DNA of 64,000 bases from Cryobacterium adonitolivorans (GTDB lineage Bacteria; Actinomycetota; Actinomycetes; Actinomycetales; Microbacteriaceae), in contig NZ_SOFL01000047.1 in NCBI RefSeq assembly GCF_004402695.1, forward strand, positions 1 to 64,000. The letters are read 5' to 3'. The notes under the pieces are model-generated. The model searched no databases and had not been told where the DNA came from. It worked only from the letters and a program-made list of their open reading frames with translations. The position numbers and the translations under genes were made by a program. This document shows positions 4,221-39,674 of this stretch, one piece after another (positions within the stretch are counted from its first letter, which is position 1; every line of letters starts with the position of its first letter).

Positions 4221-5450
4221 TTAGGAGAGGCCCTTCATCAGCCGTGCGACGGCCTGCGTGGCCGAGTCGATGTCCGACTCGGTCGAGTGCAGGCCGAGGG
4301 AGAAGCGCAGCAGCGGGGGAAGCCCGAGCTGTTCCTTGAGGTAGTGGTGGGCGCAGAAGTAGCCGCTGCGCGCCATGATCTTCGAGTGCGAGAGAAACAC
4401 CGCGAGCCGGTGCGAGTCCTGCGCTGGCGCGTAGACGCTGATCACCGGGCTGGGCTCGGTGGCCAAAACGGTGAGCCCGGGGATCTCGGCGAGGCCGGCA
4501 TGGAGCCGGGTGGACAGCCCACTGATGTGCTCGGCGGGCGCCAGCCCACCGGGGCGGATGCCGCCGAGCCACTCGATTGCCCGGCCGAGCGCGATAATCT
4601 CGCCCCAGGCCTGCAGGCCCGGTTCGAGTAGCGCCCCCGGGTCACCCTGAACGAGGTCGAAGTCGTTCTCGCGCACATCCTGCACCATGCCGCCGCCCAC
4701 AAAGCCGAGCTCGAGGGAGGTGAGCAGCTCGTGCCGCGCCACGACGACGCCGAGGCTGGCGGCGTACATCTTGTGGCCGGAGAAGCAGACCGCATCCGCC
4801 TCGGTCTTCTGCAGCAGCGCCCGGCTGTGGCCCATGGCCTGGGCGGCGTCGACGATCACGATGCCGCCGCGGGCGTGGGTGTCGCGCACGAGCTCGGCGA
4901 GGTTGGTGAGCTGGCGGCCGTCGACGTTGGAGGTGGCGTTGACGACGACGACGGCCTTCTCCAGCCGCGCGGGTTCGTAGAGCAGGGCGCCGTCGGCGGC
5001 GCGGCCCAGCACCAGGCGTTCGACGCCCAGCCGGCGGGCGGCGGTGATGGTGGGCAGGAACACCGAGTTGTGCTCGATGTGGCTGGTGACGACCCTGTCG
5101 AAGCGGCCCAGCGGCAGCTGCTGCAGGAGCAGGTTGAGGCCGTAGGTGGTGTTGAGGGTGAACGACACGGCGTGGCTCTTGGACGAGAGCCCCAGCAGGC
5201 CGAGCACGGCCTGGCGGGTGTCGGCCACGGCGGCATCAACCTTCAGGCCCCAGGCGTACTTCACCCGGCCGCCGCAGGCGTTGTAGGTCGTGTAGTAGTC
5301 GGTGAGGGCGTCGATCACGGGCTGCGGGCGCAGGCTCTGGCAGGCGGCGTCGAGGTAGATCTCGCCGGGTTGCAGGTAGCCGAAATCAGCCGACCGGCCC
5401 GTGTCGAGCGGCTCTGCGGCGGGCCTGCGGAACAGCGTGCTGCGCTTCAT
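4221..5450 (-). CDS. Class-V PLP aminotransferase, cysteine-desulfurase-like
   Basis: About 409 residues. The PLP lysine is in CFSGHKMY (about K227) and the preceding VIVDAAQ supplies the ring-stacking Asp/Gln. A cysteine sits in ARSGYFCAHHY (about C366), at the place of the sulfur-accepting cysteine of SufS-type desulfurases (R.GHHCA). ATG 5450 is preferred over TTG 5459 because GGAG lies about 9 bp upstream. It is the first gene of a two-gene unit with the membrane thioredoxin-fold protein, so sulfur transfer to a membrane or exported acceptor is plausible. No SufBCDU or IscU neighbour is present, so Fe-S assembly is not indicated. Selenocysteine lyase or kynureninase-type chemistry is an alternative. 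Confidence 0.85.
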   Translation of the reverse strand: MKRSTLFRRPAAEPLDTGRSADFGYLQPGEIYLDAACQSLRPQPVIDALTDYYTTYNACGGRVKYAWGLKVDAAVADTRQAVLGLLGLSSKSHAVSFTLNTTYGLNLLLQQLPLGRFDRVVTSHIEHNSVFLPTITAARRLGVERLVLGRAADGALLYEPARLEKAVVVVNATSNVDGRQLTNLAELVRDTHARGGIVIVDAAQAMGHSRALLQKTEADAVCFSGHKMYAASLGVVVARHELLTSLELGFVGGGMVQDVRENDFDLVQGDPGALLEPGLQAWGEIIALGRAIEWLGGIRPGGLAPAEHISGLSTRLHAGLAEIPGLTVLATEPSPVISVYAPAQDSHRLAVFLSHSKIMARSGYFCAHHYLKEQLGLPPLLRFSLGLHSTESDIDSATQAVARLMKGLS

Positions 5451-8687: not shown

Positions 8688-9011
8688 TTAGTGGCCGCCG
8701 TCGACGAGCTTGAGGCCGATGACGCAGCCGACGAGGCCGAGGATGAGCAGGATCTTGAGCACCGACGCCGGTTCGCTGCCGAAGATCATCGCGTAGAGCA
8801 CGGTCAGGGCCGCGCCGATCCCCACCCAGACCGCGTACGCGGTTCCGATCGGGATGGTGCGCATCGCGAACGCCAGGCCGGCCATGCTCAACACGAGGCC
8901 GGCTCCGAAGATCACCGTGGGCCAGAGCTTTGTGAAGCCGACGGATTTGCCGAGGGCCGTCGCCCAGACGGCTTCGAGAACACCGGACACGATCAAAATA
9001 ATCCACGACAT
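8688..9011 (-). CDS. Small multidrug resistance (SMR) exporter, SugE/Gdx-like
   Basis: A 107-residue, four-helix SMR protein starting MSWIILIVSGVLEAVWA. The conserved Glu of helix 1 (E13) carries proton and substrate in this family. The W-A-x-x-LGKS pattern and the MRTIPIGTAYAVWVGIGA segment are closer to SugE/Gdx guanidinium exporters than to EmrE. It acts as an antiparallel dimer in the cytoplasmic membrane. It is a single gene, convergent with panD and downstream of the FKBP gene on the same strand. No guanidine riboswitch could be recognised in the 90-bp leader, so the substrate assignment stays open. Confidence 0.9.
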   Translation of the reverse strand: MSWIILIVSGVLEAVWATALGKSVGFTKLWPTVIFGAGLVLSMAGLAFAMRTIPIGTAYAVWVGIGAALTVLYAMIFGSEPASVLKILLILGLVGCVIGLKLVDGGH

Positions 9012-9100
9012 GACAACACTCCCGTGGCCAGTCTTGTCGCGTGCCGGGTACTGATCCGTCGTCCGGGACCGCGGTGAGCGGTCTCCCAGAAGACTAGCCC

Positions 9101-19087: not shown

Positions 19088-19148
19088 CGCGAGCCGTGAG
19101 CTAAGCACCGAATGCCGGGACACTCTGGGGCTTAACTCACGGCTCGCG
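19088..19148. repeat. Family B intergenic palindrome, copy 1
   Basis: The arms CGCGAGCCGTGAG and CTCACGGCTCGCG pair perfectly. The inner part (CTAAGC...CTTAA) pairs partly around a 20-nt centre. It lies between the MFS start and the MATE stop on the same strand. Confidence 0.85.
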
Positions 19149-29464: not shown

Positions 29465-30373
29465 GTGGTCGCGCCAGCACAGGAATCCGAACGCCGGTCC
29501 AGGCACGCCCTCCAACGCGGCGGCAAACACCGGGAATCCTCGGTGCCGTCCAGCTTCGAACGCGGCTTCCAATCGCTCGGTGAGCTCGCCATGGGCGGCG
29601 CGCAGGTGTCCGCGCGGGCGACCGACCTGGCCACCGGCAGGGTGCTGTTCTCCGTCGATGACCACGTCGTCATGCCCACCGCCGGCATCGGCACGGTGCT
29701 GCTGCTGATCGAGGTGGCCTCGCGGCTGCGCGACGCCGACTTCGGTGCGTACACGATCCTCGACCGCTCGGTGCGCGACTCGGTCGACGGCTCCGGACTC
29801 TGGCAGCACCTGCAGGTGCCATCGCTGCCCGTCGCCGACCTCGCCGCACTCGTGGGCGCCACCAACGACAACCTGGCCACCAACGTGCTGCTGCGCGCCG
29901 TGGGCCTGGAGGCCGTGCGCCGTCGCACCGAGGACCTCGGCCTGAGCGGCACCGGCCTGCTCGACCTCGTCCGCGACTCACGCGGCCCCGACGATGCCCC
30001 CAATCTGTCGGTGGGCAGCGCCCGCGAGCTCACCTGGCTGTTCACGGCCCTGGCACGCGGCGAGATCCTCGACGACGAGGGCAGCGAACGGGTGCTCGGC
30101 TGGCTGTCGCTGAACTCCGACCTGTCGATGGTGGCCAGCGCGTTCGGCTTCGAACCGCACGCCCACCGGTCGGCGTCCCACGGGGTCCTGCTGGTGAACT
30201 CGACAGGCACCGACAACGGGGTGCGCAGCGAGGTGGGCGTGCTGCGCGGACCGCGCGCCGGCGTCGCCTATGCCGTGTCGATCTTCTTCGAGGACCACAC
30301 ACTCTCCTCCCGCCTCTCGGTGCTGGACGGCATGCGCGCGGTCGGCCTGGACCTACTCGAATACGTGCACTGA
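29465..30373 (+). CDS. Class-A beta-lactamase-fold protein with lost catalytic residues
   Basis: A 302-residue protein that aligns in order with class A beta-lactamases. It has a DLATGRVLFSVDD strand pair, the helix-2 region PTAGIGTVLLL where active enzymes have S-x-x-K, GATNDNLATN where they have SDN, and NSTGTDNG where they have KTG. The nucleophile Ser and the general-base Lys are both missing, as is the Lys of KTG. It has no signal peptide, so it is probably cytoplasmic and non-hydrolytic, perhaps a binding or regulatory protein. GTG 29465 is used, with AGAGGA about 10 bp upstream. Confidence 0.75.
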   Translation: MVAPAQESERRSRHALQRGGKHRESSVPSSFERGFQSLGELAMGGAQVSARATDLATGRVLFSVDDHVVMPTAGIGTVLLLIEVASRLRDADFGAYTILDRSVRDSVDGSGLWQHLQVPSLPVADLAALVGATNDNLATNVLLRAVGLEAVRRRTEDLGLSGTGLLDLVRDSRGPDDAPNLSVGSARELTWLFTALARGEILDDEGSERVLGWLSLNSDLSMVASAFGFEPHAHRSASHGVLLVNSTGTDNGVRSEVGVLRGPRAGVAYAVSIFFEDHTLSSRLSVLDGMRAVGLDLLEYVH

Positions 30374-30377
30374 CCCC

Positions 30378-30440
30378 CCGCGAACTGTGAGCTAAGCCCC
30401 GAAAGACTCGAGTTTTCGGGGCTTTTCTCACGGCTCGCGG
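30378..30440. repeat. Family B intergenic palindrome, copy 2
   Basis: A long hairpin: CCGCGAACTGTGAGCTAAGC through GCCCCGAAA pairs with TTTTCGGGGC and TCTCACGGCTCGCGG, leaving a short centre. It lies between convergent genes and supplies the last codons and the TGA stop of the YdeI-type gene. It could also terminate transcription from both sides. Confidence 0.85.
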
Positions 30441-31012
30441 CGCTGGTGGGCGCGCTCGTTGCGCGCGGCCGCCTCTGCCGTCTCCCTGATGCGCGCGGAC
30501 CGGGTTGCGGGGCGCTTCGCCTGCACGATCCACTCCAGGATGGCGCGGCGCGGGGAGCGCGGGAACGCGTCCCAGTTCGCATGGGCACCCTCGTAGCCGG
30601 CCAGGGCCGCGGCCAGGTCGGGCGGCACGATCAGGTCCTCGACCTCGTCGAGCCGGGTCCAGGAGCCGTCGGCCTCGGCGGAGCGCACGGCTGCCTCACC
30701 GGCGTCCCGCATCAGCCCGTCGGCGCGGAGCCGCTCGATGCGCTGCTTGTTGGGCCTGGACCACGAGCTGCCGGGCCGGCGGGGCGCGAAGTAGAGCATG
30801 GTGCGCCTGTCGTCGACCTTGCCGCCCTTGCTGTCGACCCAGCCGACGGCAAGGGCCTCGAGGACCGCATCCTCATAACCGAGCACCGGCATCCCGGAGC
30901 CCTGGCGCCAGGTGACCAGCCACACTCCGGTCCTCTGTGTGTGGTTCTCCGCCAGCCAGGCCCGCCACGCGGCCCGGTCCTCGGGGTGCACCCGTTCGGC
31001 TTCATCGCTCAC
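30428..31012 (-). CDS. YdeI/OmdA-family protein
   Basis: About 194 residues with the features of the YdeI or OmpD-associated (OmdA) family: WVDSKGGKVDDRRTMLYFAPRRPGS near the middle, NKQRIERLRADGLM, and a C-terminal segment WDAFPRSPRRAILEWIVQAKRPATRSARI, as in many YdeI proteins. The function is poorly known; some members are linked to bacteriocin or polymyxin tolerance. GTG 31012 fits the start of the domain. The stop codon lies inside family B palindrome copy 2, and its start is only 15 bp from copy 3. Confidence 0.85.
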   Translation of the reverse strand: MSDEAERVHPEDRAAWRAWLAENHTQRTGVWLVTWRQGSGMPVLGYEDAVLEALAVGWVDSKGGKVDDRRTMLYFAPRRPGSSWSRPNKQRIERLRADGLMRDAGEAAVRSAEADGSWTRLDEVEDLIVPPDLAAALAGYEGAHANWDAFPRSPRRAILEWIVQAKRPATRSARIRETAEAAARNERAHQRREP

Positions 31013-31027
31013 GCCGCCACCATAGCC

Positions 31028-31088
31028 CGCGAGCCGTGAGCTGAACCCCGAAGAACGCGTGTTCTCGGTGCCCAGGTCACGGCTCGCG
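31028..31088. repeat. Family B palindrome, copy 3, between two divergent start codons
   Basis: The arms CGCGAGCCGTGAG and a matching TCACGGCTCGCG are intact; the centre is more diverged (CTGAACCCCG...CGGTGCCCAGG). It fills nearly all of the 90 bp between the YdeI-type and CodB starts, leaving about 15 bp on each side. Confidence 0.8.
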
Positions 31089-31102
31089 AGTAGTCTCGTC
31101 GC

Positions 31103-32596
31103 ATGAGCGAGCAGACCACCGCGCTGAGCGTGGAGCGTAACGGCATCAACTCGATCGACCAGAGCGAGCACAGGGGGCATCCGCGGGATCTGTTCTGGCC
31201 GTGGTTCGCGGCCAATGTGTCGGTGCTCGGGGTGAGCTACGGGTCGTTCCTGCTCGGCTTCGGCATTTCGTTCTGGCAGGCCACCCTCGTGGGCCTGACG
31301 GGCATCGTGGTGTCTTTCCTGTTCTGCGGCTTCATCGCCCTGGCCGGCAAGCGCGGGCACGCGCCCACCATGACGCTGAGCCGGGCCGCCTTCGGCGTCA
31401 ACGGCAACCGGGTCCCCTCGGCGATCTCCTGGCTGCTCACCGTGGGCTGGGAGACCGTGCTCGCCTCGCTGGCCGTGCTGGCAACGGCCACGGTCTTCCG
31501 GGAACTCGGTTGGGAGGGCGGTGATGTGACCAAGGTCGTCGCGCTCATCGTGGTGGCCGCCCTGATCGTGGCCGGCGGCATCATCGGCTTCGACTTCATC
31601 ATGAAGCTGCAGATGTGGATCACCATCGTCACGGGCGTGCTCACCGTGGTCTACATCGTGCTCACCTTCAACCAGATCGACGGCGCCACCCTCGCCGCAA
31701 TCCCGCCCGGCGGGGCCCCTCAAGTAGTCGGCGCGCTGGTGTTCATGATGACCGGCTTCGGCCTGGGCTGGGTGAACGCGGCCGCCGACTACTCCCGATA
31801 CCTGCCCCGGTCGGCGTCCAGCGCCGGCGTGGTCGGCTGGACCACCTTCGGCGCCTCGCTGGCCCCCATCATCCTGCTCCTGTTCGGCCTGCTGCTGGCC
31901 GGCTCGTCACCCGAACTCAGCGCGGCCATCGCGATCGACCCGATCGGCGCGCTGACCACCATCCTGCCGGTCTGGTTCCTCATCCCTTTCGCACTCACGG
32001 CGGTGCTCGGCCTGGTCGGTGGCGCGGTGCTCGACATCTACTCCTCCGGCCTGGCCTTGCTCAGCACCGGCCTGCGGGTGCCCCGGTTCGTGGCCGCCGG
32101 CATCGACGGGGTGCTCATGGTGCTCGGCTCGATCTACGTGGTGTTCTTCGCGGCCGACTTCCTCGGCCCGTTCCAGGGCTTCCTGATCACCCTGGGCGTG
32201 CCCGTCGCAGCCTGGTGCGGCATCATCATGGCCGATGTGCTGATGCGTCGCACCGGCTACGCGGCCAAGGACCTCTTCGACCCCGCCGGCCGGTACGGCA
32301 ACGTGCGGGTCCTCGCTATCGTGCTCATCGCGCTGGGCTCGGCCATCGGCTGGGGCATGGTCACCAACGGCTTCGCCGGCTGGCTGGCCTGGCAGGGCTA
32401 CCTGCTCGAACCGTTCGGCCTGGGCGGCCGCGAGGGCGACTGGGCGTACGCGAACCTCGGTGTGCTGGTGGCCCTGGTGATCGGCTTCGGCGGCACCCTG
32501 CTCTTCGGCCGGGGCACCGTGCGCCGCCAGGAGGCGCTGTCGCTGGCCGACGGTGACCACCTGACCGAGGAGCAGGACCTCGCGGCCCGCCCATGA
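31103..32596 (+). CDS. Nucleobase:cation symporter-1 (cytosine permease-like)
   Basis: A 497-residue NCS1-family permease with 12 membrane helices: WFAANVSVLGVSYGSFLLG in helix 1, LSRAAFGVNGNRVPS, GLGWVNAAADYSRYLPRSAS and the LGxxLDIYSSGLALL-type helix 8 region. The family imports cytosine, purines, hydantoins or related ring compounds. A TAGTCT -10-like hexamer (31091-31096) just before the ATG suggests a leaderless message. Its stop overlaps the next start by 4 bp, opening a four-gene operon. The substrate is inferred from the downstream enzymes to be a nucleobase- or nucleoside-like compound. Confidence 0.88.
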   Translation: MSEQTTALSVERNGINSIDQSEHRGHPRDLFWPWFAANVSVLGVSYGSFLLGFGISFWQATLVGLTGIVVSFLFCGFIALAGKRGHAPTMTLSRAAFGVNGNRVPSAISWLLTVGWETVLASLAVLATATVFRELGWEGGDVTKVVALIVVAALIVAGGIIGFDFIMKLQMWITIVTGVLTVVYIVLTFNQIDGATLAAIPPGGAPQVVGALVFMMTGFGLGWVNAAADYSRYLPRSASSAGVVGWTTFGASLAPIILLLFGLLLAGSSPELSAAIAIDPIGALTTILPVWFLIPFALTAVLGLVGGAVLDIYSSGLALLSTGLRVPRFVAAGIDGVLMVLGSIYVVFFAADFLGPFQGFLITLGVPVAAWCGIIMADVLMRRTGYAAKDLFDPAGRYGNVRVLAIVLIALGSAIGWGMVTNGFAGWLAWQGYLLEPFGLGGREGDWAYANLGVLVALVIGFGGTLLFGRGTVRRQEALSLADGDHLTEEQDLAARP

Positions 32597-33153
32597 GCAC
32601 CGGGTCCTGGTTGGTGCTCGTCGACCTGCAACGCATCTTCGGCGAACCGGCGAGCGAGTGGTTCACACCGCGGTTCGACGAGGCGGCGGCCGGCGCCGTG
32701 CGCCTCCGTGAGATCTTCCCTGGCCGCACCGCGCTGACCAGGTTCGTCGCGCCGACCGAGCCGACGGGCGCCTGGGTGCCGTACTACCAGCAGTGGCCGT
32801 TCGCGCTGGATCCCGCCAATGCCGCTCTCTACGACCTGGTTCCGGCGCTGCCGCCCGGCGACGCCGTGCTCATCGACCGGCCCAGTTTCGGCAAGTGGGA
32901 CGCCGCGACCCGCGCCGCCCTCGGCGACACCCGCGACATCGTGCTCGCCGGGGTCTCCACGGATTGCTGCGTGCTGTCAACGGCCCTCGCCGCCGCCGAC
33001 GACGGCGTGCGGGTGCGCGTGGTGGCGGACGCCTGCGCCGGCCTCAGCGACACCGACCACCAACGCGCCCTCGGCGTGATGGCGCTGTACGCACCGCTGA
33101 TCGAGATCACCACCGTCGAGGCGATCCTGGCCGAGCGCGGGCTCGCCAGGTGA
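32593..33153 (+). CDS. Isochorismatase-family cysteine hydrolase
   Basis: A 186-residue alpha/beta hydrolase with the family triad: Asp11 in LVLVDLQ, Lys101 in RPSFGKWD and Cys126 in VSTDCCVLSTALAAADDG. This group includes nicotinamidases, ureidoacrylate amidohydrolases and N-carbamoyl hydrolases; the metal-binding residues of nicotinamidases (D-x-H-x-H) are not evident. It acts in the cytoplasm. ATG overlaps the permease stop, and its own stop overlaps the next GTG (GTGA). An amide or carbamoyl product of a nucleobase is a plausible substrate. Confidence 0.87.
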   Translation: MSTGSWLVLVDLQRIFGEPASEWFTPRFDEAAAGAVRLREIFPGRTALTRFVAPTEPTGAWVPYYQQWPFALDPANAALYDLVPALPPGDAVLIDRPSFGKWDAATRAALGDTRDIVLAGVSTDCCVLSTALAAADDGVRVRVVADACAGLSDTDHQRALGVMALYAPLIEITTVEAILAERGLAR

Positions 33154-34196
33154 CGGTGGCCGGCGCGGCGGTGTCTGGGCCATCCGGCATCCTCGACCGG
33201 GCCGTCGGAGCGCTCACCGGCCTGGCCATCGGCGACGCCCTGGGTATGCCCAGCCAGCTGATGAGCCGGTCGGAGGTGCTGACCCGGTTCGGGCCCGGCG
33301 GCGTGACCGGGTTCGAACCCGCCGCCGCCGCCCATCCGATCGCCGCCGGGCTGCCGGCCGGCACGGTCACCGACGACACCGACCAGGCGCTGCTGTTGGG
33401 CCGGCTACTCGTTGCCGGCCGCGGCCGGCTGGCTCCGGCCGGGCTCGCCTCGGCCCTGCAGGAGTGGGAGGACCGGATGCGTGCGGCCGGGTCGCTGGAC
33501 CTGCTCGGCCCGTCCACCCGCGGCGCCCTGGCCCGGCTGCGGGCGGGGGAATCCGTGGCAGAGGCCGGCCGGTTCGGGGCGACCAACGGAGCCGCCATGA
33601 GGGTGGCCGGCGTGGGTATCCTGATGCCGACCGGCGACCTGCCGGCCCTCGTCGACAGGGTGGCGGAGACCGCCAGGCTCACCCACAACACCGGGGTCGC
33701 CATCGCCGGAGCCGCCGCTGTCGCGGCCGCCGTGAGTGCGGCGCTCGAGGGCGCGACCGTGGCCGAGTCGACAGCGGTGGCTATCGAAGCCGCCCGGCTC
33801 GGTGCGCTGCGGGGGTACTGGGTCGCGGCCGGCCAGGTGGCCGCGCGCATCCGCTGGGCGGTCGACCTGATGGATGCCCGCCGACCGGCCGAGTCACTCG
33901 AGTGGGTCTACGAGCTCGTCGGCACCAGCTTGGCCAGCCAGGAGTCGGTGCCAGCGGCCTTCGCCGTGCTCGCGCTCTACCCGGGCGACCCGTGGCAGGC
34001 GTGCCTGGCGGCCGCGTCGCTCGGCGGTGACAGTGACACCATCGCCGCGATGGCCGGAGCCGTGGCCGGAGCCGTTCACGGGGTCGACGGGTTTCCGCCG
34101 CACGCGGTCGAGACCGTGCGCCGGGTGAACGACCTCGACCTCGAACCGATCGCGGCCGGGCTGCTCGTGCTCCGCCGGTCGGCGAGGGCCGGATGA
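33150..34196 (+). CDS. ADP-ribosylglycohydrolase (DraG) family protein
   Basis: A 348-residue all-helical hydrolase with the dinuclear-metal motifs of DraG/ARH proteins: GLAIGDALGMP (about 22-32), VTDDTDQALLLG (about 73-84) and GGDSDTIAAMAGAVAGA (about 290-306). These proteins cleave N- or O-glycosidic bonds to ribose in ADP-ribosylated substrates or related ribosides. GTG 33150 overlaps the preceding stop by 4 bp. Between a permease/hydrolase and a ribokinase-like kinase it more likely releases ribose from a small riboside than repairs proteins. No ADP-ribosyltransferase is nearby. Confidence 0.88.
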   Translation: MTVAGAAVSGPSGILDRAVGALTGLAIGDALGMPSQLMSRSEVLTRFGPGGVTGFEPAAAAHPIAAGLPAGTVTDDTDQALLLGRLLVAGRGRLAPAGLASALQEWEDRMRAAGSLDLLGPSTRGALARLRAGESVAEAGRFGATNGAAMRVAGVGILMPTGDLPALVDRVAETARLTHNTGVAIAGAAAVAAAVSAALEGATVAESTAVAIEAARLGALRGYWVAAGQVAARIRWAVDLMDARRPAESLEWVYELVGTSLASQESVPAAFAVLALYPGDPWQACLAAASLGGDSDTIAAMAGAVAGAVHGVDGFPPHAVETVRRVNDLDLEPIAAGLLVLRRSARAG

Positions 34197-35170
34197 CCCC
34201 TCCCGGCGCCAGCCCGATCCACCGGCTGGTCAGCCTGGGCACCGTGGTTGTTGATCTCGTCACGTTCGTGCCGGCGCTGCCCGAGCAGGGCGGCGACGTG
34301 TTCGCCTCCGGCGGGGCGCTCGTTCCCGGCGGCGGCTATACGGCCATGGCGGCGGCCCGGCGCGCCGGCCTGCCCACGATTCACGCCGGCACCACCGGCA
34401 CCGGGCCGTTCGGGGACCTGGCCCGCGCCGCTCTCGCCGCGGCCGGCATCGAGACGGCCGTGGAGCCGGTGCCGGCGGTCGACACCGGCCTGTGCCTGGT
34501 GCTCGTGGAGCCCACTGGGGAGCGCACCTTCGTGACGCTGCCGGGTGCGGAAGGGCGGATGGAGCCGGCGATGCTCACCCGGCTGTCGCTTGCCCCCACG
34601 GATGCGGTGCTCCTGTCGGGCTACGGCCTCGCGCACCCGGTGACCGGGCAGGCGATCCTCGCCGTGCTCGCCGGGCTGCCGGCCGGGGCCACCCTCGTCG
34701 TCGACCCCGGTCCGCTCGGCCACGAGCTCGATCCCGCCGTGCGGGGGTCCCTCTTCGCCCGCGCCGACTGGTGGACCTGCAACGCGAGGGAGGCGATTCT
34801 GCTCACGGGAGAGGCCGACCCGACCGCCGCATCCGGCGTGCTCGCCGAACGGCTGGCCTCCGACCGGTCCGCGGCGACTGGGCAGGGCAACATGCCTCGC
34901 GCGCCGGGACACGCGGTGGTGCGCCTCGGCGCGGCGGGTTGCCTTCTCGCCGTCTCGGGTCGCCCGCCGGTCCTCGTCAGCGCGGTGCCGGCATCCGTCA
35001 TCTCGACGAACGGGGCCGGCGACGCCCACACAGGTGCCCTCATCGCCGCGCTGGCCGCCGGGCGGTCGCCGATCCCGGCGCTTCGCCAAGCGAACGAATC
35101 CGCCCGGGAGTTCCTCCGCTCCCGCGAGCCGTTGCCGCGGACTAGAGGGTCGCGTCGTAGGCGTGTTTGA
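34193..35170 (+). CDS. PfkB-family carbohydrate kinase
   Basis: A 325-residue ribokinase-fold kinase: PGGGYTAMAAARRAG near the N terminus (substrate binding), a VDPGPLG strand, TCNAREAILLTGE, and the ATP/catalytic loop STNGAGDAHTGALIAAL with Asp as base. It should phosphorylate ribose, a nucleoside or pseudouridine-like sugar. ATG overlaps the DraG stop by 4 bp, as last gene of the operon. Its 3' end overlaps the convergent DUF5655 gene by 29 bp. Confidence 0.88.
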   Translation: MTPPGASPIHRLVSLGTVVVDLVTFVPALPEQGGDVFASGGALVPGGGYTAMAAARRAGLPTIHAGTTGTGPFGDLARAALAAAGIETAVEPVPAVDTGLCLVLVEPTGERTFVTLPGAEGRMEPAMLTRLSLAPTDAVLLSGYGLAHPVTGQAILAVLAGLPAGATLVVDPGPLGHELDPAVRGSLFARADWWTCNAREAILLTGEADPTAASGVLAERLASDRSAATGQGNMPRAPGHAVVRLGAAGCLLAVSGRPPVLVSAVPASVISTNGAGDAHTGALIAALAAGRSPIPALRQANESAREFLRSREPLPRTRGSRRRRV

Positions 35171-35723
35171 GCCAGGCACCCACCTCGGAGTCGACCTGGC
35201 TGGCGGAGGTGAGCGGGATCCGGGCGGGGAAGTCTGCGCCGAGCTCGGTTGCGGGTCGCAGCCGGGTGCTGGGCGCCACCTCCGGCATGTCGATGCGAAG
35301 GCCCAGGTCCACGCGGTGCCGGGTGGTCGGCTGCACCACCGCGAAAGTGCGCTGCGGCCCGGTCAGCGCAACGTGCGTGGTGCGCGTCTGGATACTCACA
35401 TCGTCGAGGTCACCGGCGTACAGCAGAACGGCGTCGAGGATCGGCCGCAGCGACGGGCGGTCGTCGTACTGGGCGTCGATCAGCTCGTCGGCGGCCCGCA
35501 CCGTGGAGTCCGGGTAGCCGAACGTCTCGTGCACGAGCAGCGCGCGCGAGTAGCCGCTGACCCCCTCGGTCACCAGCCACTCGCGCAGGGCGCGTTCGTG
35601 GGGCGGGTCCAACTCCTGGATGCGGGCCAGCCAGTGCTCGAGGCCGCTGCCGGTGGACTGTTGCAATATGCCGATCTCCCAGAGCCGGATAGCGGCCCAG
35701 GGCAGCGGCTGCTCGTCGGTCAT
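35142..35723 (-). CDS. DUF4287/DUF5655-type protein
   Basis: About 193 residues. The N-terminal part (LEHWLARIQELDPPHERALREWLVTEGVSGYSRALLVHE) resembles DUF4287. The second half (VLLYAGDLDDVSIQTRTTHVAL, RTFAVVQPTTRHRVDLGLRI) resembles DUF5655, a domain also found beside nucleases and transport proteins. The biochemical role is unknown. ATG 35723 is used; GTG 35750 is in frame, but it touches the family B palindrome and adds no conserved residues. Neither start has a clear ribosome site. Confidence 0.75.
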   Translation of the reverse strand: MTDEQPLPWAAIRLWEIGILQQSTGSGLEHWLARIQELDPPHERALREWLVTEGVSGYSRALLVHETFGYPDSTVRAADELIDAQYDDRPSLRPILDAVLLYAGDLDDVSIQTRTTHVALTGPQRTFAVVQPTTRHRVDLGLRIDMPEVAPSTRLRPATELGADFPARIPLTSASQVDSEVGAWLKHAYDATL

Positions 35724-35751
35724 GCAGGCAGGGTACGCCCGCTCGTGCACT

Positions 35752-35816
35752 CCCGCGAGCCGTGAGATAAGCCCCGAAAAATCGCATTTCGTGGGGCTTT
35801 TCTCACGGTTCGCGGG
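35752..35816. repeat. Family B intergenic palindrome, copy 4
   Basis: The most complete copy: 65 bp from CCCGCGAGCCGTGAGATAAG to CTTTTCTCACGGTTCGCGGG, with inner arms GCCCCGAAA and TTTCGTGGGGC around a short centre. It ends one base before the stop codon of the NUDIX gene. Confidence 0.88.
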
Positions 35817-36272
35817 TCAGTCGATGCGTCCCGCTGCGTGCAGGAGGCGGAGGACCTCGACGCCTGCCGGCGGGCAGTGTGCGGCGTCGGCCGAAGTGGC
35901 CCAGTGCACGGCGCTCACCTCGGCGCTCGCCGACGGGTCATCGGGGGTTTCGGCACCGAACACGGCCATCCGCACGAGCCGGCCGTCGGGTTCGCCGTGG
36001 GCCTGGATCAGCACCGTGAACAGCGGTTCGAGCGCGGCGGGGTCCAGGCGCACCGTCACCTCTTCCCAGGCTTCCCTGGCGGCGGCATCCGCCTCGCTCT
36101 CGCCGGGGTCGATCTTGCCGCCGGGCATGAACCACACGTCGCGCCCGCGGGCAGTGACCATGAGCACCCGGCGGTCGCGGATCAGTGCGACGGCCGCAAC
36201 CAGAATGTCGGGGTGCGCCGGGGGTGCCGGCACCGCAGTGTCATTCACAGCGGTCGCCGGTGCATCGCTCAC
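35817..36272 (-). CDS. NUDIX hydrolase
   Basis: A 151-residue pyrophosphohydrolase. The NUDIX box runs GGKIDPGESEADAAAREAWEEV, with REAWEE carrying the metal-binding Glu residues. The box ends EEVTV, so the usual Gly of the EExGx segment is replaced. An unstructured Ala/Pro N terminus (about 20 residues) precedes the domain. It overlaps aroE by 4 bp (aroE upstream), so they are co-transcribed. Substrates such as nucleoside diphosphate derivatives are possible; none can be named. Confidence 0.9.
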   Translation of the reverse strand: MSDAPATAVNDTAVPAPPAHPDILVAAVALIRDRRVLMVTARGRDVWFMPGGKIDPGESEADAAAREAWEEVTVRLDPAALEPLFTVLIQAHGEPDGRLVRMAVFGAETPDDPSASAEVSAVHWATSADAAHCPPAGVEVLRLLHAAGRID

Positions 36273-37114
36273 GCGCGGGCGAAGGCCGAGGCTGCCCGCA
36301 CCTGCTCGTTCGTCGGTCGCACGCCGGTGTAACGCTCGAACTGTTCGGCGGCCTGCAGGGCGATCACCTCGGCGCCGGTGATCACGGTCTTGCCCATCGT
36401 GCGGGCCGCGAGGATCAGCGGCGTCTCAGCGGGCAGAGCGACGACGTCGAAGACGGTGTCGGAGGCCGATATGGCCGCGGCCGTGAAGGCGGATTCGGTG
36501 GCCTGCGCCCCGCCGGCCATGCCGATCGGCGTTACGTTCACCAGCAGCGGCGCGGTGGCGTCGCCCGGTTCGGCCCGCCAGTTGTAGCCGAGCTCGTCGG
36601 CCAGGGCCCGGCCGCGGGTCTCGTTGCGGGCCACGATGGTGCCCGCGGCGAAGCCGGAGTCGCGGAGGGCCGCGGCGACCGCCTTGGCCATGCCGCCGGA
36701 GCCGCGCAGCAGGAACGGGGTGGCCGGGTCGAGGTTATTGCTCTTCAGCAGGTCGGCCGCGGCGATGTAGTCGGTGTTGTATGCACGCAGGTAGCCGTCG
36801 TCGTTGACGATGGTATTCACCGACTGGATGGCCGTGGCCGAGGCGTCGAGTTCGTCGACGAGCGCGATGACGTCTTCCTTGAACGGCATCGACACCGAGC
36901 AGCCGCGGATGCCGAGCGCACGCACCCCGGCGATGGCGCCGGCCAGGTCGGTCGAGGTGAACGCCTTGTAGACGAAGTCCAGCCCGAACTGCTCGTAGAG
37001 GTAGTTGTGGAACCGGGTGCCGAAGTTGCTCGGCCGCGCGGCCAGCGAGATGCAGAGCCGGGTGTCCTTGTTCAGCGGGGGCTTGGTCAGTGTGGGCTTC
37101 GTTGAGTTCGTCAT
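36269..37114 (-). CDS. Shikimate dehydrogenase family protein (AroE/YdiB-like)
   Basis: A 281-residue NAD(P)-dependent dehydrogenase: CISLAARPSNFGTRFHN at the substrate site, SVSMPFKED with the catalytic Lys, NTDYIAA with the catalytic Asp, and the nucleotide loop LRGSGGMAKAVAAAL. It has S-L-A-A-R-P where AroE usually has the SxS motif, so it is closer to the YdiB or AroE-paralogue groups, and the substrate may differ from shikimate. ATG 37114 is chosen because GGAGG is just upstream. It is followed by NUDIX, overlapping by 4 bp. Confidence 0.85.
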   Translation of the reverse strand: MTNSTKPTLTKPPLNKDTRLCISLAARPSNFGTRFHNYLYEQFGLDFVYKAFTSTDLAGAIAGVRALGIRGCSVSMPFKEDVIALVDELDASATAIQSVNTIVNDDGYLRAYNTDYIAAADLLKSNNLDPATPFLLRGSGGMAKAVAAALRDSGFAAGTIVARNETRGRALADELGYNWRAEPGDATAPLLVNVTPIGMAGGAQATESAFTAAAISASDTVFDVVALPAETPLILAARTMGKTVITGAEVIALQAAEQFERYTGVRPTNEQVRAASAFARA

Positions 37115-37129
37115 CGCCTCCAATGCTAC

Positions 37130-37159
37130 GGCCCGCCCGGATTTCCATCCGGGCGGGCC
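37130..37159 (-). terminator. Hairpin terminator after cstA-ybdD
   Basis: A perfect 13-bp stem (GGCCCGCCCGGAT with complement) closes a TTCC loop, 24 bp after the ybdD stop and before aroE on the same strand. No T-run follows. Confidence 0.75.
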
Positions 37160-37182
37160 GCAGTTCTCAGTGGGGGTACCGC

Positions 37183-37392
37183 TCAGCAGCACCGGCCCTG
37201 AGGGTTGGTGTCCTGCCGGTCGGCCTGGTCGCGCCAGAACTCCTGTTCGGTCATGGCCGGCGCCGCAGCATCCGTGCCATGCACCGACTCGTGGTGCGCC
37301 CGGTACTTGTCGTAGGCGTCCTCACCCATGACGCCCTTGACATACCAGGCGAGTCCGGCCGCGGCCGAGCGCACCGCGGTGGCCACGCCCAT
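37183..37392 (-). CDS. YbdD/YjiX-family small protein (DUF466), CstA partner
   Basis: A 69-residue protein of the YbdD/YjiX family, which almost always sits beside CstA-type transporters. It contains the typical WYVKGVMGEDAYDKYRAHH core and a C-terminal EFWRDQADRQ..NPQGRCC tail. It likely modulates pyruvate or peptide uptake by CstA. Its ATG overlaps the cstA stop (TGATG), so the pair is translationally coupled. A strong terminator follows. Confidence 0.92.
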   Translation of the reverse strand: MGVATAVRSAAAGLAWYVKGVMGEDAYDKYRAHHESVHGTDAAAPAMTEQEFWRDQADRQDTNPQGRCC

Positions 37393-39674
37393 CAGTGCTC
37401 GCGCGTCTTGCGCTTGCCGGTGCTCGGGCGGGCGTCCCACAGCGCCTGGGTGGCCTTTTCGGCCGGCGTGGCCTTGAGGCCGGCCGGTGCGAAGATCCGC
37501 GACGGCACGGCGAGGTCCTCGTTGGTCGCGTTCGAGTGGGTCCGCCACGCGTTCCAGGTGGCCTGCAGCGCGGTGAAGATCACGATGACCGCGAGCGTGA
37601 CGAAGATGATCGACAGGATGCCCTGCACCATCGTGTTGCGCACGACGGCCTCCATCGCCTCGACCGAGGTGGCCGTGCCGAAGCTCGTCTCCCCGTCGGC
37701 GAGGGCATTGGAGAAGGCGGCGTTCTGGGCGAAGTAACCCACCGACGGCACGGTCGAGAAGATCTTCAGGATCGAGGCCGTGATGGTCACGACGGCCGCG
37801 AAGCTGAGCGGCAGTGCCACGATCCAGAGGTACTTGAACAGGCCTCGCTTGGCCACGATAGCCATGCACACCGCCAGAGCGATCGCGGCGAGCAGCTGGT
37901 TGGCGATGCCGAACAGCGGGAACAGCGTGTTGATGCCGCCGAGCGGGTCGGTGACACCCATCACGAGCACCGCACCCCAGGCCGCCACCATGATGCCGGT
38001 GGTCAACCAGGCGCCGGTGCGCCAGGAGGTGTCCTTGAACTTCGGGAAGAAGTTGCCCAGGCTGTCCTGCAGCATGAACCGGGCGACGCGGGTGCCGGCA
38101 TCCACTGCCGTGAGGATGAACAGAGCCTCGAACATGATCGCGAAGTGGTACCAGAACGCCATCATGCCGCTGCCGCCGGCGACCTGCTGCATGATGTTTG
38201 CCAGGCCCACCGACAGCGTCGGGGCGCCGCCGGTGCGCGACACGATGGATTCCTCGCCAACGTTGAGAGCGGTCTGGGTGAGCATGTCGGGGGTGAGGTT
38301 CACGCCGGTCAGGCCCAGGCCGTTGACGAAGGCCACCGCGCCCTGCACGGTGCCGCCGGTGAGGGCAGGCGATGCGTTCATGGCGTAGTAGATGCCCTGA
38401 TCGATCGACAGGGCGGCGACGAGCGCCATGATCGCCACAAAGGACTCCATCAGCATGCCGCCGTAGCCGATGAACCGGGTCTGGCGTTCCTTCTCGATCA
38501 GTTTGGGCGTGGTGCCGGAAGCGATCAGAGCGTGGAAGCCGGACAAGGCGCCGCAGGCGATGGTGACGAAGAGGAACGGGAAGAGTGTGCCGCTGACCAC
38601 GGGACCGGCGCCGCTGGTGGCGAAATCCGTGACGGCGGGAACGGTGATTTCCGGGCGAACGATGATGATCGCCACGGCGAGCATGCCGATGGTGCCGATC
38701 TTCATGAAGGTGGAGAGGTAGTCGCGCGGGGCCAGCAGCAGCCAGACCGGCAGGATCGCGGCGATGAAGCCGTAGACGATGATTCCGATGGCCAGCGGCA
38801 GCTTGTCGATGTGGAACATTGCCGCACCCCACTCGGTTCCGGCGATGGCGCCACCGCCGACGATCGCGGCGATGAGCAGCACGAAACCGATGATCGAGAT
38901 CTCGGTGACCTTGCCCGGGCGGAAGAACCGCAGGTAGCAGCCCATGAACAGGGCGATCGGGATGGTCATGCCGACCGAGAAGACGCCCCAGGCGCTCTCG
39001 GCGAGGGCGTTGACCACGACGAGGGCGAGGATGGCGACGATGATCACCATGATCGTGAGCGTGGCGAGGAGGGCGGCGGTGCCGCCGACGCGGCCGAGTT
39101 CGTCGCGGGCCATCTGGCCGAGCGACCGGCCGCCGCGGCGCATCGAGAAGAACAGCACCAGGTAGTCCTGCACAGCGCCGGCGAAGACCACGCCGACGAT
39201 GATCCAGATAGTGCCGGGCAGGTAGCCCATTTGCGCGGCGAGCACCGGGCCGACGAGCGGGCCGGCGCCGGCGATGGCGGCGAAGTGGTGACCGAAGAGC
39301 ACCCGGCGGTCGGTTGCGGCGTAGTCCTTGCCGTCTGCCTTGTACTCGGCGGGCGTCGCACGCCGATCATCCGGGCGCAGCAGGTGTTTCTGGATGTAGT
39401 TGGAGTAGAACCGGTACCCGATCAGGTAGGTGCAGATCGCGGCGAAGACGAACCAGATGGCGTTCACGGTCTCGCCGCGCACGACGGCGAGCATCACCCA
39501 GCTCAGTCCGCCGAGCAGCGCGATGGCCACCCAGATAGCGATCTTCACCGGGGTCCAGTGGGCCTCTTCGGCCTCGTGGATGGCTGGGTCCAGGGCTACC
39601 GGCGGCAGCGCGGGATCCTGGGTGAGGTCGGGATCGTCGATGGCGTCGTGCGGAATCTTGGACGTGGCGCCCAT
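37392..39674 (-). CDS. cstA: Carbon starvation protein CstA / pyruvate transporter family
   Basis: A 760-residue protein with 16-18 membrane helices. Family motifs include GYRFYSNYIQKHLL, FGHHFAAIAGAGPLVGPVLAAQMGYLPG and FHALIASGTTPKLIEKE. CstA/BtsT members import pyruvate (or peptides) under nutrient limitation. It starts at ATG 39674 with GGGGAG about 8 bp upstream. Its 5' region contains a weak DosR-like box. ybdD follows directly. Confidence 0.95.
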   Translation of the reverse strand: MGATSKIPHDAIDDPDLTQDPALPPVALDPAIHEAEEAHWTPVKIAIWVAIALLGGLSWVMLAVVRGETVNAIWFVFAAICTYLIGYRFYSNYIQKHLLRPDDRRATPAEYKADGKDYAATDRRVLFGHHFAAIAGAGPLVGPVLAAQMGYLPGTIWIIVGVVFAGAVQDYLVLFFSMRRGGRSLGQMARDELGRVGGTAALLATLTIMVIIVAILALVVVNALAESAWGVFSVGMTIPIALFMGCYLRFFRPGKVTEISIIGFVLLIAAIVGGGAIAGTEWGAAMFHIDKLPLAIGIIVYGFIAAILPVWLLLAPRDYLSTFMKIGTIGMLAVAIIIVRPEITVPAVTDFATSGAGPVVSGTLFPFLFVTIACGALSGFHALIASGTTPKLIEKERQTRFIGYGGMLMESFVAIMALVAALSIDQGIYYAMNASPALTGGTVQGAVAFVNGLGLTGVNLTPDMLTQTALNVGEESIVSRTGGAPTLSVGLANIMQQVAGGSGMMAFWYHFAIMFEALFILTAVDAGTRVARFMLQDSLGNFFPKFKDTSWRTGAWLTTGIMVAAWGAVLVMGVTDPLGGINTLFPLFGIANQLLAAIALAVCMAIVAKRGLFKYLWIVALPLSFAAVVTITASILKIFSTVPSVGYFAQNAAFSNALADGETSFGTATSVEAMEAVVRNTMVQGILSIIFVTLAVIVIFTALQATWNAWRTHSNATNEDLAVPSRIFAPAGLKATPAEKATQALWDARPSTGKRKTREH

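Follow-up and report, generated by a model that had tools for sequence, protein, structure and literature searches.

A four-gene operon of Cryobacterium adonitolivorans couples a YegU–YegV-type pair to an NCS1 permease and a cysteine hydrolase: a candidate scavenging system for sugar conjugates

A stretch of 64,000 nucleotides from Cryobacterium adonitolivorans (contig NZ_SOFL01000047.1, hereafter the window) carries an operon of four genes, encoding an NCS1-family permease of a clade here called NCS1-A, an isochorismatase-like cysteine hydrolase (CysH), a DraG-type glycohydrolase, and a PfkB-family kinase (Table 1). As the initial annotation had stated, each gene overlaps the next by 4 bp, with ATGA, GTGA, and ATGA at the three joins; position 31103 for the permease and GTG for the DraG gene are the likeliest choices among the candidate starts. 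A simple custom gene caller placed 16 NCS1-A/CysH pairs and 46 DraG/PfkB pairs in relatives, and of these 11 and 28, respectively, have a gap of exactly -4. The tight packing is thus retained, and the four-gene arrangement is more than chance. All four proteins pass the cut-off of their Pfam family (permease, 121.3 bits against a gathering cut-off of 23.5; CysH, 75.8 against 27; DraG, 216.5 against 26.2, placing it in the ADP-ribosylglycohydrolase superfamily; PfkB, 100.9 against 25.8), and none reaches the cut-off of any named NCBIfam family.

Table 1. Genes of the operon, with positions in the window.
Product	Position	Strand	Length	Start codon	Pfam
NCS1-family permease (clade NCS1-A)	31103..32596	+	497 aa		PF02133
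CysH, isochorismatase-like cysteine hydrolase	32593..33153	+	186 aa		PF00857
DraG-type (YegU-type) glycohydrolase	33150..34196	+	348 aa	GTG	PF03747
PfkB-family (YegV-type) kinase	34193..35170	+	325 aa		PF00294

The last two genes are related to a pair from Escherichia coli. The DraG-type protein is 36% identical to YegU and the kinase 28% identical to YegV, and the window has a YegU-type DraG gene directly beside a co-directional YegV-type PfkB gene, as in yegTUV-type cassettes. In E. coli MG1655, the two genes are likewise adjacent and in the same order, follow a gene for a nucleoside-type transporter, and overlap by 4 bp (annotated gap of -4 at both joins of yegT-yegU-yegV). The operon had been put forward as new, which does not hold for its DraG–PfkB core, a pair that is already known as yegUV and is functionally unexplained. 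The two systems differ in their transporter, which is of the MFS/NHS type (YegT) in E. coli but of the NCS1 type in the window, in the cysteine hydrolase, which E. coli lacks, and in the GntR regulator YegW (GgaR), whose gene is adjacent and antiparallel in E. coli. A 2024 study gives no clear function for yegT, yegU, and yegV, and describes GgaR as their repressor with ADP-glucose as effector (PMC10819704). YegV is treated as an uncharacterised sugar kinase in a 2025 paper, where a machine-made label for it is called an overpropagation (PMC12506659). In MG1655, yegTUV-yegW lies between fbaB (class I aldolase) and yegX-thiD-thiM, and genes of fbaB length (349–350 aa) and thiD length (266 aa), matched by length only, flank four other yegTUV loci (L233-L235, L257).

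To place the operon among its relatives, we surveyed 140 loci around YegU-type DraG genes. This sample is biased by similarity: 80 named loci are the best 80 of at least 550 confirmed matches in a species-collection scan rather than a random draw, and 60 further regions (6–17 kb) were hand-picked from matches in the genomes of relatives and three phylum samples. Presence was counted by tblastn, and absence of CysH, PfkB, or a GH63-like gene stands for no tblastn match at threshold; gene starts come from the custom caller, which missed genes in several loci (e.g. L033, L042, L244, L247), and partner families were assigned by Pfam on representatives only. The full set of NCS1-A, CysH, DraG, and PfkB genes occurs in 24 of the 140 loci, spread over Actinomycetota and Bacillota and in two module orders, so the genes of the proposed set are not scattered. 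The gene orders seen are NCS1-CysH-DraG-PfkB, NCS1-CysH-GntR-DraG-PfkB, and, in three Amycolatopsis loci, GntR-DraG-PfkB-NCS1-CysH. In 19 of the 20 named full-set loci the permease is 62–74% identical to that of the window, and in the closest named relative (L032) 96%. One more locus (L037), which runs to a contig edge, has NCS1-A and CysH without PfkB.

Genome searches gave a DraG match at E 0.001 in 41 genomes from 149 relatives, the window's own included. Pieces of all four genes were found inside the short flanks in 8 of the 30 loci returned (L001-L007 and L012, again including the window's own), and five of these eight, with the window counted, belong to its genus. Among evenly drawn genomes, DraG was matched in 51 of 396 from the window's phylum at E 1e-30 (only four of these, the window's own among them, reach 1e-80). 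In the phyla to which a Pseudomonas and a Sulfobacillus genome belong, both searched at 1e-40, the genomes with a match numbered 26 of 398 and 33 of 299, respectively.

A PfkB gene lies within 9 kb of the YegU-type DraG gene in 114 of the 140 loci, while the transporters vary. NCS1 permeases are found near DraG in 83 loci, 51 of which have a second clade, NCS1-B (49 with PfkB), whose members are 34–41% identical to the window's permease. Other loci have YegT of the NHS family (7/140), a Bmp protein (3/140, one with PfkB), an ECF transporter (EcfT, 19/140, 12 of these with a DhnA aldolase), or a PotD-like binding protein (11/140, seven of these with a GH63/trehalase-like glycosidase). PfkB is the sole partner in seven loci, DhnA and PfkB occur without ECF in one, and nine have none of these partners. 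Of the 32 NCS1-A loci, 25 have CysH near DraG, as against none of the 51 with NCS1-B and none of the 7 with YegT. In 91 loci, a GntR match is found no farther than 6 kb from DraG, and the two representatives scanned by Pfam are of the GntR-UTRA type. The GntR-DraG-NCS1-PfkB clusters of Pseudomonas and Streptomyces (44 of the 80 named loci) share the YegU-type DraG, the PfkB kinase, and an NCS1 permease with the window, but have the other NCS1 clade, a different gene order, and no CysH. A ribose-utilisation cluster of Bacteroides also includes an ADP-ribosylglycohydrolase.

The initial annotation had treated the four genes as one set, whereas the survey resolves them into two separable modules. 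A search with a CysH alignment matched 22 of 246 phylum genomes at E 1e-12, and 12 regions were fetched out of the 24 places listed. In five of these 12 (L282, L283, L284, L285, L287), NCS1 and CysH occur together without DraG or PfkB, neither of which is found in any of the 12. The five permeases are 48–67% identical to the window's; those of L284 and L285, at 48–49%, may therefore fall just outside the NCS1-A clade. A GH63-like gene is present in four regions (L284, L286, L288, L289; two of the four confirmed by Pfam), two of which also have a PotD-like binding protein, and the most distant regions fetched (L290-L293) have none of these partners. Whole-genome searches of nine CysH-region genomes gave no DraG match at E 1e-20 in five and weak matches only in the other four (best 1.3e-29). 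Among the five genomes with the NCS1–CysH pair, four lack a DraG match and one (G273) has a weak one; the genome of L285 (G293) is only 87% complete, and its missing DraG is weak evidence for that reason. NCS1 and CysH are thus able to occur in the absence of the DraG pair. Conversely, that pair does not require NCS1-A and CysH, as it also goes with YegT, the other NCS1 clade, Bmp ABC, PotD-like ABC, and ECF transporters. Since permease–CysH and DraG–PfkB each occur apart, we regard the operon as two joined modules.

The modules seem to have been joined more than once. In a quick DraG tree with SH-aLRT support only, comprising the window and 111 of 141 loci (30 were left out by hand, namely 19 named NCS1-B loci, most from Pseudomonas, and 11 regions), the CysH label changes at least seven times, at least four of these changes being forced by starred branches, and the combined GH63-PotD label changes twice, in two separate places. 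For L227, the row used was frame-shifted and contained 24 stops, entered as X, so that its placement is meaningless, and near-copies also cluster labels on this tree. The CysH changes point to repeated assembly of the modules, which suggests that their chemistry is connected. A literature search of PMC-licensed papers found the permease-hydrolase-DraG-PfkB set in no title or abstract opening, and the same holds for the NCS1–CysH extension, its independence, the fact that it was joined repeatedly, and its association with GH63-like, ECF, and Bmp genes; some of the papers listed do mention an ADP-ribosylglycohydrolase in their text.

The DraG-type protein is predicted from its sequence to cut a sugar–aglycone bond. 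Its metal motifs TDDT (74–77) and GGDxDT (292–297) are intact and invariant in 15 aligned rows, and its structure model (pLDDT 92.5) has MJ1187, DraG, and ARH3 as nearest folds. Fold and metal motifs are common to all of these, but the window's protein differs in carrying the YegU-type signature LGPS/T and, in most rows, TNGAAMR. The shared features would also suit a protein de-ADP-ribosylase, similar to DraG or Tri1, that acts in regulation or defence and has incidental neighbours. We rejected this identity, which we consider very improbable: the protein scores 94.3 of the 337.05 bits required by the equivalog for ADP-ribosyl-dinitrogen reductase hydrolase (TIGR02662) and 54.9 of 490 bits for Tri1, a Pfam scan of the ten proteins of 29465-39674 found no ADP-ribosyltransferase, and DraG is often linked to a sugar kinase and importers. 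Most of the transporters found near DraG belong to nucleoside or nucleobase families (NCS1, Nuc_H_symport, PnrA-like Bmp), the main hint at nucleoside-like substrates, and the recurrence of three unrelated families (NCS1, YegT/NHS, Bmp) beside DraG argues for a probable role in small-molecule catabolism rather than protein de-ADP-ribosylation. In the column of the window's D117, which aligns near Asp97 of DraG, Asp is found in nearly all YegU-type rows, but E. coli YegU (L031:4096-5100) carries Asn; PDB entry 2woe is a D97N variant.

The kinase is predicted, likewise from sequence, to phosphorylate the freed sugar or the conjugate. It has GAGD at 274–277 and keeps the YegV signature D35, Y144, R244, and H279. 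Among families with solved structures, the YegV profile comes closest to the ribokinases (136.6 bits), and yet the window's protein scores 80.6 of 299.65 bits against the ribokinase equivalog TIGR02152, by which a plain ribokinase identity was rejected. Two ribose contacts of RbsK, N46 and Glu143, are both missing. Position 50 of the window's kinase, which corresponds to N46, is Thr, and Glu143 has no Glu partner in the YegV profile alignment, where YegV-type kinases read Gly143. Nothing found here shows that the released sugar is ribose, as named initially. Among 114 kinases tabulated (the window and loci with a PfkB match within 6 kb of DraG), the residues at window positions 35, 50, 143, 144, 244, and 279 read D-N-G-Y-R-H in 89 and D-T-G-Y-R-H in six, the window included. 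Asn occupies the codon-50 column in 105 of the 114, and Thr is found in the window and five other loci; in relatives from the same genus, the residue is Thr (L002 and L005) or Ile (L004). The change may reflect either altered specificity or decay.

The initial annotation had cleavage precede phosphorylation, an order that is an assumption. In a variant of the same pathway, PfkB would phosphorylate the imported conjugate at the sugar 5'-OH and DraG would hydrolyse the phosphorylated conjugate, just as PsuK and then PsuG act kinase-first on pseudouridine. A 5'-phosphorylated substrate would suit the DraG pocket, as DraG/ARH enzymes act on ADP-ribosyl groups, in which ribose bears a 5'-phosphate, and enzymes for ADP-ribosyl groups are the nearest folds after the uncharacterised MJ1187. 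The acceptor may also exceed free ribose in YegV-type kinases, which stay within the ribokinase fold family but lack Glu at the Glu143 place of RbsK and have the clade-specific Y144, R244, and H279. Eight kinases of ECF or DhnA loci are a different PfkB with Glu in the Gly143 column, and these might accept free ribose. The matter is not settled by sequence or gene order, and we consider the kinase-first order possible but somewhat unlikely. The PsuK–PsuG system resembles the window's operon in pairing a PfkB kinase with an enzyme acting on a glycosidic bond, but PsuG is not a DraG protein, and its chemistry concerns a C–C bond. A pseudouridine pathway was rejected, as none of the four proteins matched a PsuG family at E 0.001 (Pfam).

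CysH is a predicted amidase for the aglycone, as judged from its sequence. D11, K101, and C126 are invariant across 18 aligned rows and, by analogy with the family, are presumably the catalytic triad. The nearest folds to its model (pLDDT 95.0) are PSPPH_2384 (a Pseudomonas cysteine hydrolase), biuret hydrolase, MAR1, an isochorismatase-like hydrolase, and maleamate amidase, with identities of 16–26% among the 50 fold matches listed. The models of CysH and DraG both appear confident, with the expected folds. CysH shares the isochorismatase fold and the D-K-C triad with BiuH, NicF (maleamate amidase), and nicotinamidases, but differs from them in its low identity and its scores, which fall under the cut-offs of all four NCBIfam models listed (e.g. 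biuret hydrolase BiuH, NF050097, 32.5 of 370 bits). Nicotinamidases have a metal site built on His residues. The only His of CysH is H156, which implies that this site is missing, and the nicotinamidase model PRK11609 gave 23.8 of 174 bits. Nicotinamide riboside with CysH as nicotinamidase, one of the substrates suggested initially, was rejected on these grounds as unlikely. The permease is predicted to bring in the conjugate, its base-like aglycone, or both; it scores 58.6 bits against TIGR00800 (cut-off 353.1), is also under the CytX cut-off (NCBIfam), and has no relative among PDB sequences at E 0.01.

Based on the operon anatomy, the kinship with YegU–YegV, the recurrence of the full set and of its modules, and the intact catalytic motifs observed here, we propose a two-module scavenging operon for a riboside-like conjugate, to which we give about even odds (probability roughly 0.5). 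A small glycoconjugate resembling a riboside, its aglycone, or both would enter through the NCS1-A permease. The YegU-type hydrolase would cleave the sugar–aglycone bond, and the YegV-type kinase would phosphorylate the sugar for entry into central metabolism, while CysH would hydrolyse an amide (or imide or ureide) of the released aglycone via its Cys nucleophile. The direction of flow, the nature of the sugar and aglycone, and whether DraG acts before PfkB are inferred; ribose is a guess from the protein families. The riboside catabolic pathway of the initial annotation is plausible as a class, and its neighbourhood is conserved, even though its DraG–PfkB core was already known. The data separate none of vitamin B6, hydantoins, biuret-like compounds, 5-aminoimidazole-4-carboxamide (AICA) riboside, alpha-ribosides, and Amadori compounds as substrate candidates. 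The Bmp protein of L254 resembles a 'putative B6' substrate-binding protein at 80.4 of 400 bits, too weak to use.

Several observations weigh against this proposal. No PfkB was detected in 26 of the 140 loci, and NCS1-A and PfkB occur without CysH in 7 of 32 NCS1-A loci. As NCS1 and CysH stand without DraG and PfkB in the five regions described above, their substrate need not be a riboside. On the side of the kinase, the usually conserved Asn at position 50 is replaced by Thr50 in the window, the ribokinase cut-off is missed, and 10 of the 114 kinases (from at least 10 loci) have Phe at position 279, which places them outside the YegV branch; eight of these ten are the Glu-bearing kinases mentioned above, seven from ECF-type loci and one from a DhnA locus (L211). 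A GntR gene is absent among the operon's neighbours scanned by Pfam, and the closest named relative, L032, likewise has no adjacent GntR-UTRA regulator. Finally, GH63-like glycosidases and DhnA aldolases in some relatives hint at sugars other than ribose, and E. coli yegTUV has been tied instead to ADP-glucose and glycogen in the GgaR study (PMC10819704).

The hint at another sugar deserves consideration, as the GH63/trehalase-like (MGH1-like) glycosidase recurs near both CysH and DraG. DraG-type and GH63-like hydrolases might be alternative cutters of related, non-ribose conjugates that share an aglycone processed by CysH. Seven of the 140 loci, two of them with CysH, combine DraG and PfkB with a GH63-like and a PotD-like gene no more than 9 kb away; they fall at two separate places in the DraG tree, and a GH63-like gene is near CysH without DraG in 4 of the 12 CysH regions. 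ECF-type loci add the DhnA aldolase (with EcfT in 12/140) and, in one representative, an alcohol dehydrogenase and an FGGY kinase. However, no such glycosidase was detected within 9 kb at threshold in the NCS1 and YegT loci (90/140), the nearest solved kinases are ribokinases, and the glycosidases could serve a separate substrate, which makes a non-ribose sugar unlikely in our view. The glycosidase recurs near CysH, with or without DraG–PfkB, in L284, L286, L288, L289, L096, and L107. The clusters from the Sulfobacillus phylum (L208, L212, L213, and similar) combine DraG, often with PfkB, with an ECF transporter and a DhnA-type aldolase, and the representative L208 adds a zinc alcohol dehydrogenase, an FGGY kinase, and a sugar-binding regulator; they apparently constitute another sugar-conjugate pathway. 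For two ECF S components tried, no NCBIfam name was obtained at E 1e-10.

Control of ADP-glucose and glycogen, the function put forward for E. coli yegTUV, draws on a gel shift with ADP-glucose, on raised glycogen upon deletion of the regulator, and on the listing of yegV among genes whose loss lowers glycogen (PMC10819704). The passages of that paper considered here give partners such as CysH, NCS1, Bmp, and GH63-like proteins no place in the proposal, and we consider such a role for the window's operon improbable.

A broader form of the scavenging proposal, which we advance only tentatively and with less confidence than the operon-level reading, is a modular pathway for sugar conjugates (ribosides and perhaps other glycosides) of an amide-bearing, base-like aglycone. 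In such a pathway, YegU and GH63-like enzymes would cut alternative conjugates, YegV would phosphorylate the sugar, CysH, as a new isochorismatase subfamily, would open the aglycone, and five kinds of importer (NCS1, NHS, Bmp ABC, PotD-like ABC, and ECF) would be swapped freely.

The operon is bordered by two genes on the opposite strand that lie outside it by Pfam assignment, an OmdA/YdeI-like gene on its 5' side and a DUF5655 gene on its 3' side, the 3' end of which overlaps that of pfkB (35142-35170). A promoter and terminator scan found no promoter-like site and one terminator-like site, compared to a mean of 1.3 in shuffled sequence. Rfam scans of the window, five loci, and nine ECF-type loci, aimed at a riboswitch clue to the substrate, found no riboswitch before these genes. 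In L204, a c-di-GMP-I aptamer (5205-5295, - strand) shares its strand with the DraG gene but is located some 2.7 kb behind that gene. Elsewhere in the window, a guanidine-III riboswitch (9023-9087, - strand, 56.2 bits, Rfam) directly precedes a 107-aa ORF (8688-9011, - strand), which may encode an SMR exporter. A palindromic intergenic repeat, GCGAGCCGTGAGCTAAGCCCCGAA with its mirror, flanks the operon (30380-30438, 31029-31052, 35755-35778) and also occurs at 19089-19147. It has six arms in the window and none in shuffles, its 18-base core has 38 matches genome-wide and none for the reversed control, and it is probably a REP-like element.

As two of its genes are related to yegU and yegV, the operon offers a route to what these genes do. 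In the actinobacterial version, the pair is joined by a dedicated amidase-like enzyme and a transporter of a defined clade, and in other relatives by Bmp, ECF, PotD-like ABC, and GH63-like proteins, each added partner being a separate handle on the substrate. If the riboside reading is true, DraG-type enzymes would commonly serve in metabolism as well as in protein de-ADP-ribosylation, and if the modular sugar-conjugate pathway is true, E. coli yegTUV would gain its function.

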